NCBI RefSeq assembly: GCF_000023865.1
Contig: NC_013159.1
Coordinates: 4,180,001-4,244,000 of the forward strand
From: Saccharomonospora viridis DSM 43017
Lineage (GTDB): Bacteria; Actinomycetota; Actinomycetes; Mycobacteriales; Pseudonocardiaceae
DNA: 64,000 bases
Direction: 5' to 3'
Position numbers and translations under genes: made by a program. A model generated the notes under the pieces. It saw nothing but the letters and a program-made list of their open reading frames with translations. It did no database searches and was not told the DNA's origin. This document shows, piece after piece, positions 7,743 to 55,676 of this stretch (the stretch's first letter is position 1; every line of letters begins with the position of its first letter).

Positions 7743-8330
7743 TCAACGTCGGGTGTCCACCCGATCGAAGTTCTTGTAAGCCCGACTGGGGGTGGGTCCA
7801 CGTTGTCCCTGGTACCGCGACCCGACCTCCGGTGAACCGTACGGGAACTCGGCCGCACTGGTGAGCTGGAACAGGCACAGCTGTCCGATCTTCATCCCCG
7901 GCCAGAGTGTGATGGGCAGATTCGCCACGTTCGACAGTTCCAACGTGATGTGTCCGGAGAAACCCGGGTCGATGAACCCGGCCGTGGAGTGGGTGAGCAA
8001 CCCGAGCCGCCCCAGCGACGACTTCCCCTCCAGCCTGCCCGCGAGGTCATCCGGCAAGGAGAAGAACTCGAACGTCGAGGCGAGCACGAACTCGCCCGGA
8101 TGCAGCACGAACGGATCGTCTTCGTCGTCCTTTTCCACCAGCGAGGTCAACTCGTCCTGGCGCAGCTGCGGATCGATGTGGGTGTACCTGCTGTTGTCGA
8201 ACACGCGGAAGAAACGGTCGAGCCGCACATCGATACTCGACGGCTGCACCATCGCCGGATCGAACGGGTCCACTCCGAGTCGCCCGGACTCGAGCGCCTT
8301 ACGAAGCTCACGGTCACTCAACAGCACCAT
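7743..8330 (-). CDS. dcd: dCTP deaminase (likely bifunctional dCTP deaminase/dUTPase)
   Basis: This 195-residue protein of the dCTP deaminase/dUTPase trimeric fold includes [16 protein letters not shown], the [14 protein letters not shown] motif with the nucleotide-binding Ser/Arg, and [18 protein letters not shown] with the catalytic Glu. Mycobacterial Dcd of this type makes dUMP directly from dCTP, sparing free dUTP; the same is likely here. It supplies dUMP for thymidylate synthesis in the cytoplasm. ATG 8330 follows GGGTGGG closely. It stands alone between the CAP gene and the DUF2236 gene, all on the minus strand. Confidence 0.95.
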
Positions 8331-8360
8331 CCCACCCTAACCGGGCCATACGCTGCGAGT

Positions 8361-9602
8361 TCAGGCGGCGGGCTCGGCCCGTACCCGCATGTACCGCGCA
8401 TAGGTGGGGTCGTGCCGCACCGACTTGCCGAGCAACTCGGCGTAGCGGCGCCGAGTGAACTCCCCGAGTCGCTCCTGTACCCATGTCGCGCCGGGCAGAC
8501 GTTGCCGCACGGTCTCGACGACGAAGTTGCCCGCCGCCACCGCGAGGACGGCGAGCTGCACGATCGGATCGTCGGGCAGGCCGAGGAAATCCGAATTGGA
8601 CTTACCGAGCACGAGGCGGCTGATCGAACCGTGCACCCGCATGGACAACTCGCCGAGCACGGCACCGAGCGGACCACCCCGTTCCCGACCCGTCTCCGCG
8701 TAGGCGTCCAGCAGGGCGGCCGCGAGTCGTTTCGAGTCCTCGTCCGGCACGAACTCGGTGGCGGCGAGCAGCCACAGCAACCGCCACGCGTCCTCCTCGG
8801 TCGCGGGCAGGAGTTCGTCGTCGACCCCCATGAGCCAGCCGACATACCGCCACAGGTGGATGATGTCGGCGCGTTCGGCGTCGGTGTAGCGAACGCCGAG
8901 CACTCGCATGCCCAGGACGTAGACCAGCGAGAACAGCAGTAGCGTGCCCGCGGTCTGCACCTGGTTGATGGGGCGATCCCACGACTCGTAATCCCAATCG
9001 TCGCGCCGGTTCATGGCGGCACGGACGTGGGCGTGCACGAGCCGTACCCGCAGCGCGGCGACGTAGCCCTCGGCACCGACGTGCAACGCACCGGGCGTGG
9101 TGACGTCGAACCACCAGCGGGCGGTCTCGGTGAGGCGGCGAGTGGCCGCGTACTCGATGACACCGGTTCCCACCAGCGGTTTGGTGGCGCGGGAGGCCAG
9201 GTAGCCGCCCATCAGCGCTATGTCACCCAGGGGGAAGAGGCTCAGCACACCCGTGCGCACGATGGCCCGCGCACCCCGGTCGAGCCGCTTGTGATCCACC
9301 CAGTACGGCGTCGCCTCGACCCTGCGGAAGAAGTCCACCAGCTCGACGGGTGGGTCGTCGAGGCTGTCGAGGCCGTGCTCGACGGCCCGGTTGAACAGTC
9401 GCCGCCCCTCACCCGCCGGCAGGCTGCGGATCATCGCGACGACCGCGTCGGCGAGGGGGTCCTCGGCTTGGGCGAACTCGCGCAGACGCCGACGTTGCCG
9501 CTCGGTCCCCCGAATGTCGCCGGGAGCCAGGAACGTGGCGGCGAGGCGGAACCCCCCTTGGCGCAACAGCTCCGGGTCCGGCAGTCGCTCCTCGGCCGTC
9601 AT
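8361..9602 (-). CDS. DUF2236 (MpaB/latex-clearing-like) oxygenase
   Basis: This 413-residue protein has the DUF2236 fold shared by fungal MpaB and rubber oxygenase Lcp, which carry a b-type haem. Seen are the RVEATPYWVDH segment, VRLVHAHVRAAM (candidate haem-pocket Arg/His), WDRPINQVQTAGTLLLFS, and the GWLMGVDDELLP segment typical of the family. No signal peptide is visible, so it is probably cytoplasmic or peripheral. The start is placed at ATG 9602 because a GGGGG ribosome site sits just upstream; a longer frame to 9641 would run into the palindromic operator-like sequence. The substrate is unknown. Confidence 0.85.
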   Translation of the reverse strand: MTAEERLPDPELLRQGGFRLAATFLAPGDIRGTERQRRRLREFAQAEDPLADAVVAMIRSLPAGEGRRLFNRAVEHGLDSLDDPPVELVDFFRRVEATPYWVDHKRLDRGARAIVRTGVLSLFPLGDIALMGGYLASRATKPLVGTGVIEYAATRRLTETARWWFDVTTPGALHVGAEGYVAALRVRLVHAHVRAAMNRRDDWDYESWDRPINQVQTAGTLLLFSLVYVLGMRVLGVRYTDAERADIIHLWRYVGWLMGVDDELLPATEEDAWRLLWLLAATEFVPDEDSKRLAAALLDAYAETGRERGGPLGAVLGELSMRVHGSISRLVLGKSNSDFLGLPDDPIVQLAVLAVAAGNFVVETVRQRLPGATWVQERLGEFTRRRYAELLGKSVRHDPTYARYMRVRAEPAA

Positions 9603-9633
9603 CGCGCCCCCAGCTACCCGCGAACGAACATGA

Positions 9634-9649
9634 GACAACAAGTGTTGTC
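9634..9649. promoter_or_regulatory. Perfect palindrome upstream of DUF2236 gene
   Basis: GACAACA-AG-TGTTGTC has seven-base perfect arms and lies 32 bases upstream of the DUF2236 start codon, where a TetR-type repressor would sit over the promoter. No regulator gene is adjacent. Confidence 0.55.
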
Positions 9650-9707
9650 ACTTCTTGGTGCGCACGTCAAGCGGCAGATCAGGCCGAAGCGGAGGAGGAG
9701 CACCCGC

Positions 9708-9736
9708 TTGCCAACGGGAGATCCACGCGGTATATC
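9708..9736 (+). promoter_or_regulatory. Promoter of tRNA-Gly
   Basis: TTGCCA (9708-9713) and TATATC (9731-9736) are separated by 17 bases and lie 14 bases before the tRNA 5' end, a good housekeeping-sigma promoter for an actinomycete. Confidence 0.65.
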
Positions 9737-9749
9737 ATGTGGGCTGCGT

Positions 9750-9823
9750 GCGGATGTAGTTCAATGGCAGAACATCAGCTTCCCAAGCTGAGAATGCGGG
9801 TTCGATTCCCGTCATCCGCTCCA
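9750..9823 (+). tRNA. tRNA-Gly (anticodon CCC)
   Basis: A 74-base cloverleaf can be folded: acceptor GCGGATG/CATCCGC, D arm with AGTTCAATGGCAGAAC, anticodon stem TCAGC/GCTGA around loop TTCCCAA (anticodon CCC, reading GGG), T arm GCGGG-TTCGATT-CCCGT, discriminator U and an encoded 3' CCA. The T loop and conserved D-loop GG are intact. A good promoter precedes it and a long hairpin follows it, so it is a monocistronic tRNA unit. Confidence 0.97.
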
Positions 9824-9825
9824 TC

Positions 9826-9870
9826 ACGAAGGCCCGGGCCGGGGCACCACCCTCGGATCCGGGCCTTCGT
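9826..9870 (+). terminator. Terminator of tRNA-Gly
   Basis: ACGAAGGCCCGG (9826-9837) and CCGGGCCTTCGT (9859-9870) are perfect 12-base inverted arms, beginning three bases after the tRNA CCA end. There is no U-tract, as is common in actinobacteria. Confidence 0.75.
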
Positions 9871-9975
9871 CGTCTCGAAACCCGGCATCCCGTGGCCCAC
9901 CGTCTCGGCTCGCCCGAGCCGGGTGCCGTCACTGTCGCCCACTCGTGTTGGAGGCGACTCCTCCGCCGCCCTCGC

Positions 9976-50931: not shown

Positions 50932-51612
50932 TCAGTTCTGGCTGATCCATTGGCCGGTGACCGAGTCGATTCGAGCCACCCCCTCCAACGGCTCCGGACG
51001 CCCCCACGCGCCGTCGGTGGTACCCGTCCCGCCCGGGGAGACACCGTCGATCTCGACCCACTCACCGTCACCGGTGTGCTCGTAGGTCACCGCGTTACCG
51101 CTGTCGTCGATCTCCACCGCCACGTCGGCGTTCCCATCGCCGTCGACGTCCGTGAAGACCAACGTGGTTCCGTCCTCGGCGGTGACCACGGCCGTGTCAT
51201 TGACGCCGTCCTCGTCCGTGTCCACCGTCGCCGGACCGACCTCGACCTCACCACCGGGCAACTCCGCCGTGATCGTGTCCCCCGTGCTGGCCTGCACCTC
51301 GGGATCGGCACCTCCGGCCGGCTCACCGCCGACCCAATCACCGGTGGCCTCGTCGTACTCGGCGTAAACCGTGACGTTCCGCTGCTCGTCGAGGACGAGG
51401 TACACGTCGGCCTCGCCGTCACCGTCCTCGTCGACGAACGCCTGCACGGTCCCGTCCGCGTGCTCGATCACAGCGGTGTCGGCAACGCCGTCCTCGTCGA
51501 TGTCCAGGTTCAGCTCGGCCGCGTACTGCTCACCCTCGACGGTGATCAACAGCTCGTCCGAGGTTCCCTCGGGACCGGGGACCTCAGCCCCGCCACTCTC
51601 CTCGACCCACAC
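50932..51612 (-). CDS. Acidic protein with DxDxDG-type repeats
   Basis: This 226-residue, very acidic protein has four or more DxDxDG-like loops: DIDEDGVADTAV, DEDGDGEADVYLV, DTDEDGVNDTAVV, DVDGDGNADVAVEI. They fall in two repeats of about 85 residues. Such loops bind Ca in EF-hand, dockerin and integrin-propeller proteins. There is no signal peptide or membrane helix, so it appears cytoplasmic, which is unusual for this motif type. GTG 51612 has GGAGGGGGAG eight bases upstream. It follows the dynamin-like operon by 104 bases on the same strand and may belong to it. Confidence 0.75.
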   Translation of the reverse strand: MWVEESGGAEVPGPEGTSDELLITVEGEQYAAELNLDIDEDGVADTAVIEHADGTVQAFVDEDGDGEADVYLVLDEQRNVTVYAEYDEATGDWVGGEPAGGADPEVQASTGDTITAELPGGEVEVGPATVDTDEDGVNDTAVVTAEDGTTLVFTDVDGDGNADVAVEIDDSGNAVTYEHTGDGEWVEIDGVSPGGTGTTDGAWGRPEPLEGVARIDSVTGQWISQN

Positions 51613-51716: not shown

Positions 51717-53570
51717 TCATCCCTGGCTCGGCCGGTCCCGCAACGCCCTGATGCGCTCCAGGAAGCCCTCGGCCTGCCGCAACCCCTCCTCGACCTCCTT
51801 GATCCGCCTCGACACCCGGGTGAGCTTCCTCGCGCGCTCCTTCTCGTCCAACTTGATGGTGGTGTCGATCTCCTTCAGCTCCGCCTCGATGGCCTCGATC
51901 CGCCGGCTCAACGCGTCGTCGAGGGCGAGGGCGAGTTGCTGCTCGGCCTCGATGAGCTGCTCCGCCACCAACTGATCCAGCGTCGAGCGCGCGTCGGCGA
52001 TCGACTCGATGAGCCACTGCTTCGCGTGCTGTTTGTCGGCGGCGTGCCTGCGCGTACGGGCCATCCACCAGCCCGCCCCGAGACCGATCACGATGGTGGC
52101 CGGCAGCACCACGGGCGCGAACAGGGCGGCACTGACGAACGGTGCCGCGACCAGCTTGGCCGCGCCCGCACCGCCGGAGACCCCCATGAACACCAGCAAC
52201 TTGTCCTCGGCGGTCGGCGGTCGCTTGTCGGGCGGACGCAACACCACCGGCGGGCCACCACCGCGGGCGAGCTGTGCCCGGATGACCGCCAACTCCTCGG
52301 CGGAGAACAGCTCGGCCAGCACCGCTTCGGTGATCTCGTTCAACCGCTGCGTGAGCAGACCCGACACCCGCTGCGACACGGTCTGCAACGTGGCGTCCAC
52401 CTGCTGCGGCAGCGCGGCCAGCTCCTCCCGGCCCGCCGCGTCGATCCGCTGCCGGAAGTACGCCTGCGCCTCCCGCATCTGCCTGCCGACCTCGTGGCCC
52501 AGATCGATCCGGGCCCGCTGCACCTCACCGCGCAACCGCAGCTGCCAACCCCGCGTGGACGAACGTCGGTCGGCGACGAGCTGATCACGACGCTCCCTCA
52601 GCTGCCGTGCCTCCGACTCACCCGACCGCAGCGCCCGCTCGTTGGCGGTCAACTTCACCCGCTGCTCGGCCAACGCGCTCGACAACGCACGCAGGGTGTT
52701 GGCCTCACCCAACATCGCCGCGCGGCCCACCAGCAGCTCTTGCAACGCCGTCTGCAGCTCGGCCACACCCGACTTCTCGCGCAGCATGGCGGCGGCCTGC
52801 TCGTTGGGCGCCTTGGCGGCCAGCTCGAACATCCGCGCGGAGACCGGGTGGAACGGACAGTCGGCGAACCGCGGCGCGTGTTCGGCCAGCAACCGCTTGT
52901 TAGCCTCCAGGATCTGCCGCCAACCACGGAACTGGTCGGTCTTCGACAGCGCGAACACCACCGTCTCGACGCGGTCGGCCAACATCGTCAGAAAACGCAG
53001 CTCCGGCATGGTGAACGGGGCCGAGGCGTCCACCACGAACAGCAGCGCGGTCGCCCCGGCCGCGGCCTCCATCGCCAGCTCACCGTGCGCGGAATCCAGC
53101 CCGCCCACCCCCGGGGTGTCCACCACGCTGATGCGCTCCAGAAGCGGCACCGGGCCGCTCACCTCGACATAGCGCGGGGGCAGTTGTCCCTCGGGGAGAT
53201 CGTGCCGCACACTCACCCAGCGTTCGAGCTCCTCCAGCCCGAACTCCACCGGCGCCAGCTGACCCGGGTAACACGCCTGCGCCCGCCACTCCTCCGCGTG
53301 GTCGAACACCAGGTAGGTCGCCGTGGCCACCTCCGCTTCGACAGGCGACAGCCCCGGCTTGGCCAACAGCGCGTTGACCAGGGAACTCTTCCCCCGATTC
53401 GTCTCCCCGACCACGACGACCGACGGTTTGGTCGTCTTCGCACCACGCTGCTCCTCGACCCACTTCGCCGCCTGGGCGTCGAGGTCCCGCAACAGCGCCA
53501 GTAGCGATTCACGCGCCTTTTTCACCTGTGCGGGCAGGCTCGGCTTGCCGATCGAAGGTGCCGTGCTCAC
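51717..53570 (-). CDS. Dynamin-like GTPase A (membrane-associated)
   Basis: This 617-residue protein has a GTPase domain with P-loop GETNRGKSS (55-63), G3 DTPGVGG (151-157) and G4 SKTD (209-212). A long helical region (270-440), a hydrophobic paddle-like segment (about 458-503, LLVFMGVSGGAGAAKLVAAP then VVLPATIVIGLGAGWWMA) and C-terminal coiled coil (520-612) follow. This is the layout of bacterial dynamin-like proteins (IniA, DynA), which remodel membranes. GTG 53570 follows TAGGGT by eight bases. Third gene after dynamin B and the GrpE-like gene, with a 52-base gap. Confidence 0.88.
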   Translation of the reverse strand: MSTAPSIGKPSLPAQVKKARESLLALLRDLDAQAAKWVEEQRGAKTTKPSVVVVGETNRGKSSLVNALLAKPGLSPVEAEVATATYLVFDHAEEWRAQACYPGQLAPVEFGLEELERWVSVRHDLPEGQLPPRYVEVSGPVPLLERISVVDTPGVGGLDSAHGELAMEAAAGATALLFVVDASAPFTMPELRFLTMLADRVETVVFALSKTDQFRGWRQILEANKRLLAEHAPRFADCPFHPVSARMFELAAKAPNEQAAAMLREKSGVAELQTALQELLVGRAAMLGEANTLRALSSALAEQRVKLTANERALRSGESEARQLRERRDQLVADRRSSTRGWQLRLRGEVQRARIDLGHEVGRQMREAQAYFRQRIDAAGREELAALPQQVDATLQTVSQRVSGLLTQRLNEITEAVLAELFSAEELAVIRAQLARGGGPPVVLRPPDKRPPTAEDKLLVFMGVSGGAGAAKLVAAPFVSAALFAPVVLPATIVIGLGAGWWMARTRRHAADKQHAKQWLIESIADARSTLDQLVAEQLIEAEQQLALALDDALSRRIEAIEAELKEIDTTIKLDEKERARKLTRVSRRIKEVEEGLRQAEGFLERIRALRDRPSQG

Positions 53571-53578
53571 GGAGCGAC

Positions 53579-53584
53579 ACCCTA
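53579..53584 (-). promoter_or_regulatory. Possible internal -10 (TAGGGT) before dynamin-like A
   Basis: TAGGGT lies eight bases before GTG 53570 on the minus strand with no Shine-Dalgarno, so dynamin-like A may also have its own leaderless promoter. Confidence 0.4.
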
Positions 53585-53622
53585 TCGTGGGACGCTCCGC
53601 TCCGTCCGGCTGATCGGCGGGG

Positions 53623-54069
53623 TCAGCGGCGGGTGTAGACGGTGACGACCGGTGCCCGCAACAGCCGATCGTGGTCGACGAAGCCCACCACCTCGGTCTC
53701 GGCCACCGTGCCCTCCAGCGCCGCGTCATCGGTCGGCACGGCGCCGCCGGCCTCGTGCAACGACGGATCGAAACGCTGGCCGTCGGGCCGCAAGGCGTGT
53801 ACCCCGACACTCGCCAGCCCCTGCTCGATCCGTTCGGCGACACCCCCGCTACGAGCCCGGTCCATCGCGTAGAGACACAGCTGGATGAGTGCGTGACGAT
53901 CAGCGAGCGCCCGTTCGTGGTCGATCGGCGCCACAGTTGCTCCCACGGGTTCCACGTCGGATTCCGACGCATCCGGCCCCGCTCCGGTTCCCACTGTCAC
54001 CCAGCTGGTCGAGTGCGTTCCGGGGCACTCGATCCGCCCCGTCGGAACGTCCTCGGCATGGACGCTCAT
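53623..54069 (-). CDS. Short GrpE-like nucleotide-exchange-factor homologue
   Basis: This 148-residue protein has a variable N-terminus (1-50), a short helix (about 52-88, RALADRHALIQLCLYAMDRA) and a C-terminal beta domain (about 88-148, LASVGVHALRPDGQRFDPSLHEA then VVGFVDHDRLLRAPVVTVY). This aligns with the GrpE wing (GVE ... G..FDP..HEA ... G....R.LRPA.V.V). The long dimerising helix of true GrpE is mostly missing. No dnaK lies in the window. ATG 54069 overlaps the stop of dynamin-like B (ATGA), so translation is coupled. A partnership with the dynamins or with a distant Hsp70 is open. Confidence 0.75.
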   Translation of the reverse strand: MSVHAEDVPTGRIECPGTHSTSWVTVGTGAGPDASESDVEPVGATVAPIDHERALADRHALIQLCLYAMDRARSGGVAERIEQGLASVGVHALRPDGQRFDPSLHEAGGAVPTDDAALEGTVAETEVVGFVDHDRLLRAPVVTVYTRR

Positions 54070-55676
54070 CGCCCACCTCCGGGCGTTCTCAACTGCTGCC
54101 AAGCCAGGAAGTACGCCCGGTGGACCACGTGTGCCACCCGACTCTGCGCCGGTGTCGCGCCGAACGACGCGAACGAACGCCACCACCCGGCCCGCTCGAG
54201 CGCGTACGTCGCGAGCTCCTCCCGCGTAGCGCCCGGTTTACCCAACTGAGTCGGGATGTCGGCGTTACTGCCGACCCGCAGCACCTCCTCGGTGAGGTCG
54301 TCCGGCATCTCCACGGCCCCCGAGGCCACCAACGTCAACGCCTCCAACACGCGCAGCTGGTGCGCTTCCGGCCTGGCCAACAGCACCTCGATGGCGTCGT
54401 GCACCCGCTGCCGCTCCGCGGCGTTGCCCGAGGCGTGCGCCAACGCGGTGATCGACGCCAACGCCGCGGCCGCCTTGATGCCGTCGGCCCGCGCCGCGAA
54501 CACCGTGTTCAACCTCGCCCGCACAGCGGCGAGACCGGAGGCGTCGAGCAGCAGTCGGCGCAACGCCCCCGCGGTGATGTCCGGCTGCGCGCGGATCGCC
54601 TCGACGGCCCGCCGGACCCCGTACAGGTCGAGCTTCTCCAACAGCCGCGCCCGCACCCCGTTGGGCACGTCGCACTCCCAGCTTGTGAACATGTCAGCCG
54701 ACAGCAACATCACGTCGAGTGCGTCGTCGAGCTCGGCGAGCTGGCGCAACGCCTCCGCGTCGGCCGAGGTGAACTGCCCAGACTCCGCGGACTCGGCGAT
54801 CAGTCCGATCACCGGCAACACATCGGCGACCCGCGGCTTCAAGGTGTCGGCCTGCCTCTTCGCCAACAGCGTCGCCGCCTTCCACACGTCGCCGTCCGAG
54901 CCCTCCACGGTCTCGGGAACGATCGTGTCGGCCTTGTTCAACACCGCGATCGCGTTGACCGGCCCGGCCTCGCGGCTGGCGGTGGCCGCCGTGAACGCGG
55001 CCAACGCCTGTTCGTCGTCGGCCCGCAGTCCCTGCGTCATGACGTACAGCACCGCCTCGGCACCCGCCACGGCGTTACGCGACGTCTCGTCCAGCTCGTC
55101 CGAACCACCCGGCTCGCCGCTGTCATCGTCACCGCCGTCGGCGCCGTCACCGGAGCCGTCGACCCGCTGACCGGCGTCCCGCAGCAGGTGTTCCGTACGC
55201 GCGACCGACGCGGCGTCCAGTGAACCCAGCCCCGGTGTGTCGATCACGGTCATGTGCTCCAACGCGGCGTTGGTCAGATACGCCTCGATGTGCGACACGG
55301 TGTCGATGTCCACACCCAGTTCGGCGGGGATCATGCCGTCGGGAGCGAAGGGGAGCACCTGCTTGCGCCCGTCCCGGAAGACCACCTCGATCCGGTCCAC
55401 GGTGCCGTACTGGAACCGCGTGACCAACCGGGTGCACTCACCGATGTCGGTGGGGGCCACCCTCCTGCCGATGAGGGCGTTGACGAGCGTGGACTTACCC
55501 GACTTGATCCGCCCCGCCACGGCCACCTGCAAAGGCGCGCCGAGGCGGCGTAACACCTGGGCGAACCCTGCCGCCGTGCGCGGCGACACCTGTGGTTGTA
55601 ACCGGCGGCAGAGGTCGGCCACCGACGCCGACAGCGGCCCCGCAAGCCTGCCGCCTTGCTGTGCCGTCGTGCTCAC
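54066..55676 (-). CDS. Dynamin-like GTPase B
   Basis: This 536-residue protein has P-loop GRIKSGKST (55-63), switch I GECTRLVTRF (79-88), G3 DTPG (146-149) and G4 NKAD (247-250). Between G3 and G4 is an acidic Gly-rich insert (about 171-197, GSGDGADGGDDDSGEPGGSD), unusual inside a GTPase domain. The C-terminal half is helical with no clear membrane segment, in contrast to partner A, as in other paired bacterial dynamins. GTG 55676 has GGGGG five bases upstream; ATG 55703 is an alternative. First gene of the operon. Confidence 0.87.
   Translation of the reverse strand: MSTTAQQGGRLAGPLSASVADLCRRLQPQVSPRTAAGFAQVLRRLGAPLQVAVAGRIKSGKSTLVNALIGRRVAPTDIGECTRLVTRFQYGTVDRIEVVFRDGRKQVLPFAPDGMIPAELGVDIDTVSHIEAYLTNAALEHMTVIDTPGLGSLDAASVARTEHLLRDAGQRVDGSGDGADGGDDDSGEPGGSDELDETSRNAVAGAEAVLYVMTQGLRADDEQALAAFTAATASREAGPVNAIAVLNKADTIVPETVEGSDGDVWKAATLLAKRQADTLKPRVADVLPVIGLIAESAESGQFTSADAEALRQLAELDDALDVMLLSADMFTSWECDVPNGVRARLLEKLDLYGVRRAVEAIRAQPDITAGALRRLLLDASGLAAVRARLNTVFAARADGIKAAAALASITALAHASGNAAERQRVHDAIEVLLARPEAHQLRVLEALTLVASGAVEMPDDLTEEVLRVGSNADIPTQLGKPGATREELATYALERAGWWRSFASFGATPAQSRVAHVVHRAYFLAWQQLRTPGGGR

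Follow-up and report, generated by a model that had tools for sequence, protein, structure and literature searches.

The dynA-GRPL-dynB operon of Saccharomonospora viridis

We describe an operon of Saccharomonospora viridis DSM 43017 that encodes two dynamin-like GTPases and a short GrpE-like protein. It lies in a window of 64,000 nucleotides, the whole stretch of DNA that was analysed (positions 4,180,001-4,244,000 of NC_013159.1, the single contig of the 4,308,349-base genome). The 148-amino-acid GrpE-like protein and its gene are referred to as GRPL, and the 536- and 617-amino-acid dynamins as dynA and dynB. All three genes are located on the minus strand and, as read directly from the sequence, are transcribed in the order dynA, GRPL, dynB (Table 1). 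An earlier note on this DNA had proposed that two dynamin-like GTPases flank a GrpE-like protein, and the Pfam scores bear this out (cut-offs: Dynamin_N 27 bits, GrpE 25.8 bits). The coordinates, the ATGA overlap and a gap of 52 bases were likewise recovered by direct reading of the sequence, the gap extending from the GRPL stop to the dynB start (53571-53622). The gene order given there, dynamin B, GrpE-like protein, dynamin A, is correct as regards the flanking, but transcription starts with the 536-amino-acid dynamin and proceeds through GRPL to the 617-amino-acid dynamin, which bears the transmembrane (TM) segment. The remark that the window holds no dnaK is literally true but carries no signal: the housekeeping grpE and dnaK genes are found at 4,175,744-4,178,214, a short distance to the left of the window, and the absence is therefore an uninformative edge effect.

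Residues 36-588 of dynB align with residues 22-580 of Mycobacterium smegmatis IniA (6j72; phmmer, E 2e-18), a protein that divides membranes and for which a TM segment is predicted at residues 463-485 (PMC6715688). A TM scan of dynA returned zero predicted segments. The AlphaFold2 (AF2) model of dynA, built with 17 close relatives, reached a predicted local distance difference test score (pLDDT) of 49, and nothing was drawn from it on helical bundles.

Table 1. Features of the dynA-GRPL-dynB operon and the gene 3' of it (positions in the window).
Feature	Position	Strand	Description
dynA	54066-55676	-	536 amino acids; heads the operon; GTG start, upstream start possible
dynA, basis for assignment as dynamin-family GTPase			Pfam Dynamin_N 48.2 bits; P-loop GRIKSGKST, DTPG and NKAD motifs
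ATGA, dynA stop (TGA) overlapping GRPL start (ATG)	54066-54069	-	direct sequence reading
GRPL	53623-54069	-	148 amino acids; Pfam GrpE 38.8 bits
GRPL short helices, residues 51-71 and 77-87, equivalent to GrpE bundle helices	53809-53919	-	AF2 model, pLDDT >90 here
GRPL wing, residues 90-147	53629-53802	-	AF2 model; strands 90-93, 106-113, 121-127, 129-132, 135-138 and 141-147
dynB	51717-53570	-	617 amino acids; IniA-like dynamin-family GTPase; Pfam Dynamin_N 57.3 bits
dynB, predicted membrane-segment region, about residues 474-525	51996-52151	-	hydropathy peak at 479-497
DUF6802 gene	50932-51612	-	Pfam DUF6802 47.6 bits; next gene 3' of dynB

GRPL as a reduced relative of GrpE

GrpE is the nucleotide-exchange factor of the DnaK-type Hsp70s that fold proteins. 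From profile comparisons and the predicted structure, we conclude that GRPL is a true relative of GrpE, reduced to the short helices and the wing. This agrees with the earlier description of GRPL as a GrpE wing without most of the long dimerising helix. Residues 79-144 correspond to positions 99-163 of the 165 in the Pfam GrpE profile (PF01025), which is the wing part only; because the match is confined to these positions, the long helix is missing, and the model contains no helix before residue 51 that could represent it. The AF2 model of GRPL (mean pLDDT 86.5) consists of two short helices and a six-stranded wing. The first twelve rows of a Foldseek search with this model were all GrpE structures (probability 1.00), and structure comparison by VIA-align with E. 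coli GrpE from its complex with the DnaK nucleotide-binding domain (NBD; 1dkg_B) gave a Z of 12.4 over 98 residues, with GRPL residues 49-147 aligned with GrpE residues 79-195. Thus, the predicted fold does contain a GrpE wing. Other structures were rejected as relatives, the best of them reaching a Z of 3.9.

This relationship is supported by a profile-profile alignment of 49 GRPLs against 22 GrpEs (hhalign, E 9e-17). The core residues common to both are D70, G89, G97, F100, D101, P102, H105, E106, A107, G129, R138, V142 and V144; the GrpE set was retrieved with a search pattern that contained the motif FDPSLHEA, whose perfect conservation in that set is partly a product of this selection. 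A chance match to the GrpE profile was considered and rejected, because independent members of the group, such as that of locus L175, also score 38.8 bits. All NCBIfam GrpE equivalog models scored GRPL far under their cut-offs. GRPL thus resembles the GrpE proteins of known structure (1dkg, 4ani, 8gb3 and 9bls) in the wing fold, the short bundle helices and the FDPxxHEA, GY/GF, R and VxV core, but lacks their long N-terminal helix and has altered side chains at NBD-contact positions. It also differs from GrpE in being encoded together with dynamins and, in other families, with an Hsp70 that is not DnaK.

Conservation of the operon and its association with Hsp70-like genes

The earlier note had asked about conservation of the synteny within the Pseudonocardiaceae and about an Hsp70-like gene joining it elsewhere; both were found. 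Among 150 Pseudonocardiaceae genomes, sampled evenly across the family, 123 contain GRPL at the threshold of E <1e-14, and four more have a weak match (E 1e-5 to 1e-3). Of the 75 loci that allowed scoring, 74 kept the order and strand of dynA, GRPL and dynB, and GRPL and dynB frequently overlap by 4 bases. Genes in the compared genomes were called by a mechanical script and neighbourhoods were examined to about 7 kb; the codes G, L, f and g used below label compared genomes, loci, families and genera. Loci outside the Pseudonocardiaceae were collected by a dynB search for gene order followed by a search of the class with the GRPL profile, and incomplete loci were extended, which yielded 31 loci with dynA, GRPL and dynB. 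The arrangement is old and conserved rather than local.

In 21 of these 31 loci, an Hsp70-like gene is found within about 7 kb of the cluster. These loci belong to eight families (f3, f4, f5, f11, f12, f13, f16 and f32), while at a density of about one Hsp70 gene per Mb fewer than one linked locus in 31 is expected by chance. In the f3 loci and six of the eight f4 loci, the gene immediately precedes dynA on the same strand, mostly with a gap of less than 100 bases (L156, L157, L161-L164, L274, L275, L286, L287). One f4 locus (L175) has the order dynB-GRPL-Hsp70-dynA with overlaps, which places the Hsp70-like gene inside the operon. In the other six families it is adjacent, divergent or near the cluster, and the f32 clusters (L255-L257) contain one to three such genes. 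Within the Pseudonocardiaceae, one genome has an Hsp70-like gene directly 3' of dynB (L145), and in genera g34, g19 and g24 one lies 6-12 kb from the cluster.

The linked Hsp70-like proteins match Pfam HSP70 with 89-130 bits over the NBD part only. The match ends at about position 370 of 599 and is followed by a Pro-rich linker, and the substrate-binding domain (SBD) is absent. Of 16 Hsp70-like proteins scanned, 13 have a hydrophobic segment beyond the NBD, at the extreme C-terminus or ahead of a further domain. The nucleotide-contact residues D8, T11, K70, D194, T199, K270, S274 and R342 are kept, and the position of DnaK E267 is occupied by R or K. In a tree of 85 NBDs, the dynamin-linked proteins and two proteins encoded elsewhere in S. 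viridis, at 3.01 Mb (61% identity) and 0.43 Mb (52% identity), form one clade with support of 100/98, which excludes DnaK as well as the Hsp70-like genes of ini loci. Only this split was used, because several branches in the tree are long. Among 100 genomes checked for both GRPL and the clade, a clade member was found in all 81 GRPL-positive genomes, and a close member was absent from 12 of the 19 GRPL-negative ones, counts that are uncorrected for shared descent.

This pattern bears on the possibility that the operon is an ordinary co-transcribed stress cluster, in which the GrpE-like protein and the dynamins are mechanistically unlinked. Shared regulation can maintain gene clusters, and in some families a LuxR-type ATPase regulator resembling IniR is encoded divergently beside dynA. 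Such an origin appears very improbable, given that order, strand, tight spacing and the frequent GRPL/dynB overlap are kept across many families and that most GRPL-negative genomes lack a close Hsp70-like homologue. The regulator was recognized in the one gene of its kind that was scanned (L166:1192-3792), which encodes an ATPase-type protein with a C-terminal LuxR domain; divergent genes of 800-870 amino acids occupy similar positions in L165, L167 and L170-L172.

Several other features of the compared loci deserve mention. In L145 (genome G118), two genes separate dynA from GRPL (8269-9921), one for a serine/threonine kinase and another whose C-terminal part is related. A strong match outside the Pseudonocardiaceae (L254, genome G401) was considered as a horizontal transfer and then left uncounted, because its 11-kb contig, with a dynA-GRPL-dynB cluster and dynamins nearly identical to those of Pseudonocardiaceae, probably represents contamination. 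In most Pseudonocardiaceae loci dynB is followed by the DUF6802 gene, whose product has acidic repeats with DxDxDG motifs, and by a gene that reads as phosphoenolpyruvate carboxykinase, as in S. viridis; the DUF6802 gene is probably a neighbour rather than a member of the system. Short GrpE-like genes also occur without dynamins. Two loci (L262 and L263, in G490 and G417) carry a triad of an Hsp70-like gene, a gene of about 380 amino acids with a start resembling a J-domain and a short GrpE-like gene, and in L266-L272 (f31 and f32) an Hsp70-like gene lies beside a short GrpE-like gene, several of these beside the gene of a protein of 900-1300 amino acids. Reduced Hsp70/GrpE pairs therefore seem to serve other systems besides dynamins.

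A putative Hsp70-GRPL switch coupled to paired dynamins

The best reading of these data, to which we assign a probability of roughly 0.57, is a dedicated nucleotide switch, composed of an NBD-only Hsp70 and a GrpE-like protein and coupled to a dynamin pair of the IniA/IniC type. An Hsp70-like ATPase that lacks the SBD and is usually anchored in the membrane would have GRPL as its own dedicated exchange factor. GRPL would bind and open the NBD and speed the release of ADP, the Hsp70-like protein would cycle between ATP and ADP states, and this switch would control the assembly or release of dynA and dynB at the cell membrane. In S. viridis, the partner of GRPL would be the unlinked Hsp70-like protein encoded either at 3.01 Mb or at 0.43 Mb. 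The long helix of GrpE touches the SBD and subdomain IA of DnaK in M. tuberculosis (PMC10803776). The Hsp70-like protein described here is without an SBD and GRPL is without the SBD-contacting helix: each protein retains only the part concerned with nucleotide exchange. Co-location at the membrane is suggested by the TM-bearing Hsp70-like proteins and by N-terminal TM segments in the GRPL of many lineages, predicted by a TM scan in f5, f11, f13, f15, f16 and some others.

Several observations weigh against this reading. Ten of the 31 loci have no Hsp70-like gene within about 7 kb, namely five in f15, three in f31 and those of G174 and G269. In S. viridis itself, the operon has no linked Hsp70-like gene, and the only type universal among GRPL-positive genomes, that at 0.43 Mb, belongs to a type VII secretion cluster. 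The latter assignment was made because the membrane-anchored S. viridis gene (L238:6444-8441) lies between the gene of an FtsK/SpoIIIE ATPase and two WXG100 genes. Finally, R169 and H181 of M. tuberculosis GrpE contact DnaK (PMC10803776), and the corresponding positions of GRPL are occupied by V/L and A, while those of GrpE proteins are mostly Q/R and P/H.

Because contact residues are altered and some loci are without an Hsp70-like gene, there is room for two other explanations. GRPL could be a direct adaptor or assembly factor of the dynamins, with an ancestral Hsp70 link that was lost in the Pseudonocardiaceae and a wing that now binds dynamin. The two dynamins are indeed the sole invariant neighbours of GRPL, the f15 and f31 loci would fit, and besides the altered DnaK-contact side chains GRPL has conserved residues of its own without GrpE counterpart (A123, E126, D132 and P140). 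Such a role is unlikely, given that Hsp70-like genes are found with the cluster in eight families, that an Hsp70-like homologue is present in every GRPL-positive genome checked and that the core residues of the wing match those of GrpE. A charge swap between E126 and the R or K at the DnaK E267 position of the Hsp70-like proteins was considered and is not claimed, because E126 is one residue off the R169 position and probably faces the other side. In the earlier note, the dynamins themselves were suggested as targets of exchange or release by GRPL; this idea is without support, as everything found ties GRPL to an Hsp70 NBD.

Alternatively, GRPL might be a second exchange factor for housekeeping DnaK that brings this chaperone to the dynamins, for example for the disassembly of a coat. 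GRPL does have the fold of a DnaK exchange factor, and genus g33 yielded no Hsp70s other than DnaK and the 0.43 Mb type. This explanation, too, is distinctly improbable: housekeeping GrpE is present, the long helix, which DnaK-dependent refolding requires (PMC10803776), is absent from GRPL, its R169 position holds no basic contact residue, and the dynamin-linked Hsp70 genes group apart from DnaK in the tree. We retain the switch built of an Hsp70-like ATPase and GRPL as the preferred reading. The more general proposal of the earlier note, a link between an Hsp70 and membrane remodelling, is well supported by the gene order in eight other families and in one Pseudonocardiaceae genome (L145), while the role itself is something we infer. 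The observation as such is confirmed, and it is wider than the window alone could show.

A close known counterpart of the dynamin pair is IniA/IniC of the mycobacterial iniBAC operon (PDB 6j72; PMC6715688), which likewise encodes two dynamin-like GTPases, the first of which is matched by dynB over nearly its full length; the divergent IniR-like LuxR regulator at some dynA-GRPL-dynB loci is a further similarity. However, iniBAC carries IniB, and a GrpE-like protein has not been described with it. The S. viridis genome also has a separate ini-type locus at about 4.00 Mb (L187), with IniB-like, IniA-like and IniC-like genes, an 836-amino-acid IniR-like gene and a divergent Hsp70-like gene of its own, which is degenerate in its nucleotide residues (H/A/L in place of D8/T11/K70). 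The divisome dynamins DynA/DynB of Streptomyces (PMC8748795) are also a dynamin-like pair, and DynB has two membrane segments, but we found no published GrpE or Hsp70 partner for them. At E 0.001, dynB had no match in any of six genomes of the presumed Streptomyces family, a search that included no positive control. CjDLP1/2 of Campylobacter, of solved structure, are encoded as an operon pair and tether membranes as hetero-oligomers, but the abstract of that study names neither a GrpE-like nor an Hsp70-like partner (PMC6104087). Our literature search, which missed most subscription journals, retrieved no published account that connects GrpE, Hsp70 or DnaK to bacterial dynamins or to iniBAC.

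More tentatively, and with less than even odds, the four components may form a machine of a kind unknown in bacteria, in which a transmembrane Hsp70-like ATPase, whose extracytoplasmic tail may sense the outside, acts with a mini-GrpE associated with the membrane to assemble and disassemble a heterodimeric dynamin in repeated cycles. Such a machine would be a bacterial counterpart of Hsc70 with dynamin and clathrin. In mycobacteria, IniA and IniC are induced by drugs that act on the cell wall. The operons of other families in which the Hsp70-like gene is linked to the cluster make the proposed switch directly testable. If it is correct, a chaperone switch would work here as a pure regulator, wired to membrane GTPases, and this would provide a handle on the control of bacterial dynamin pairs such as IniA/IniC.

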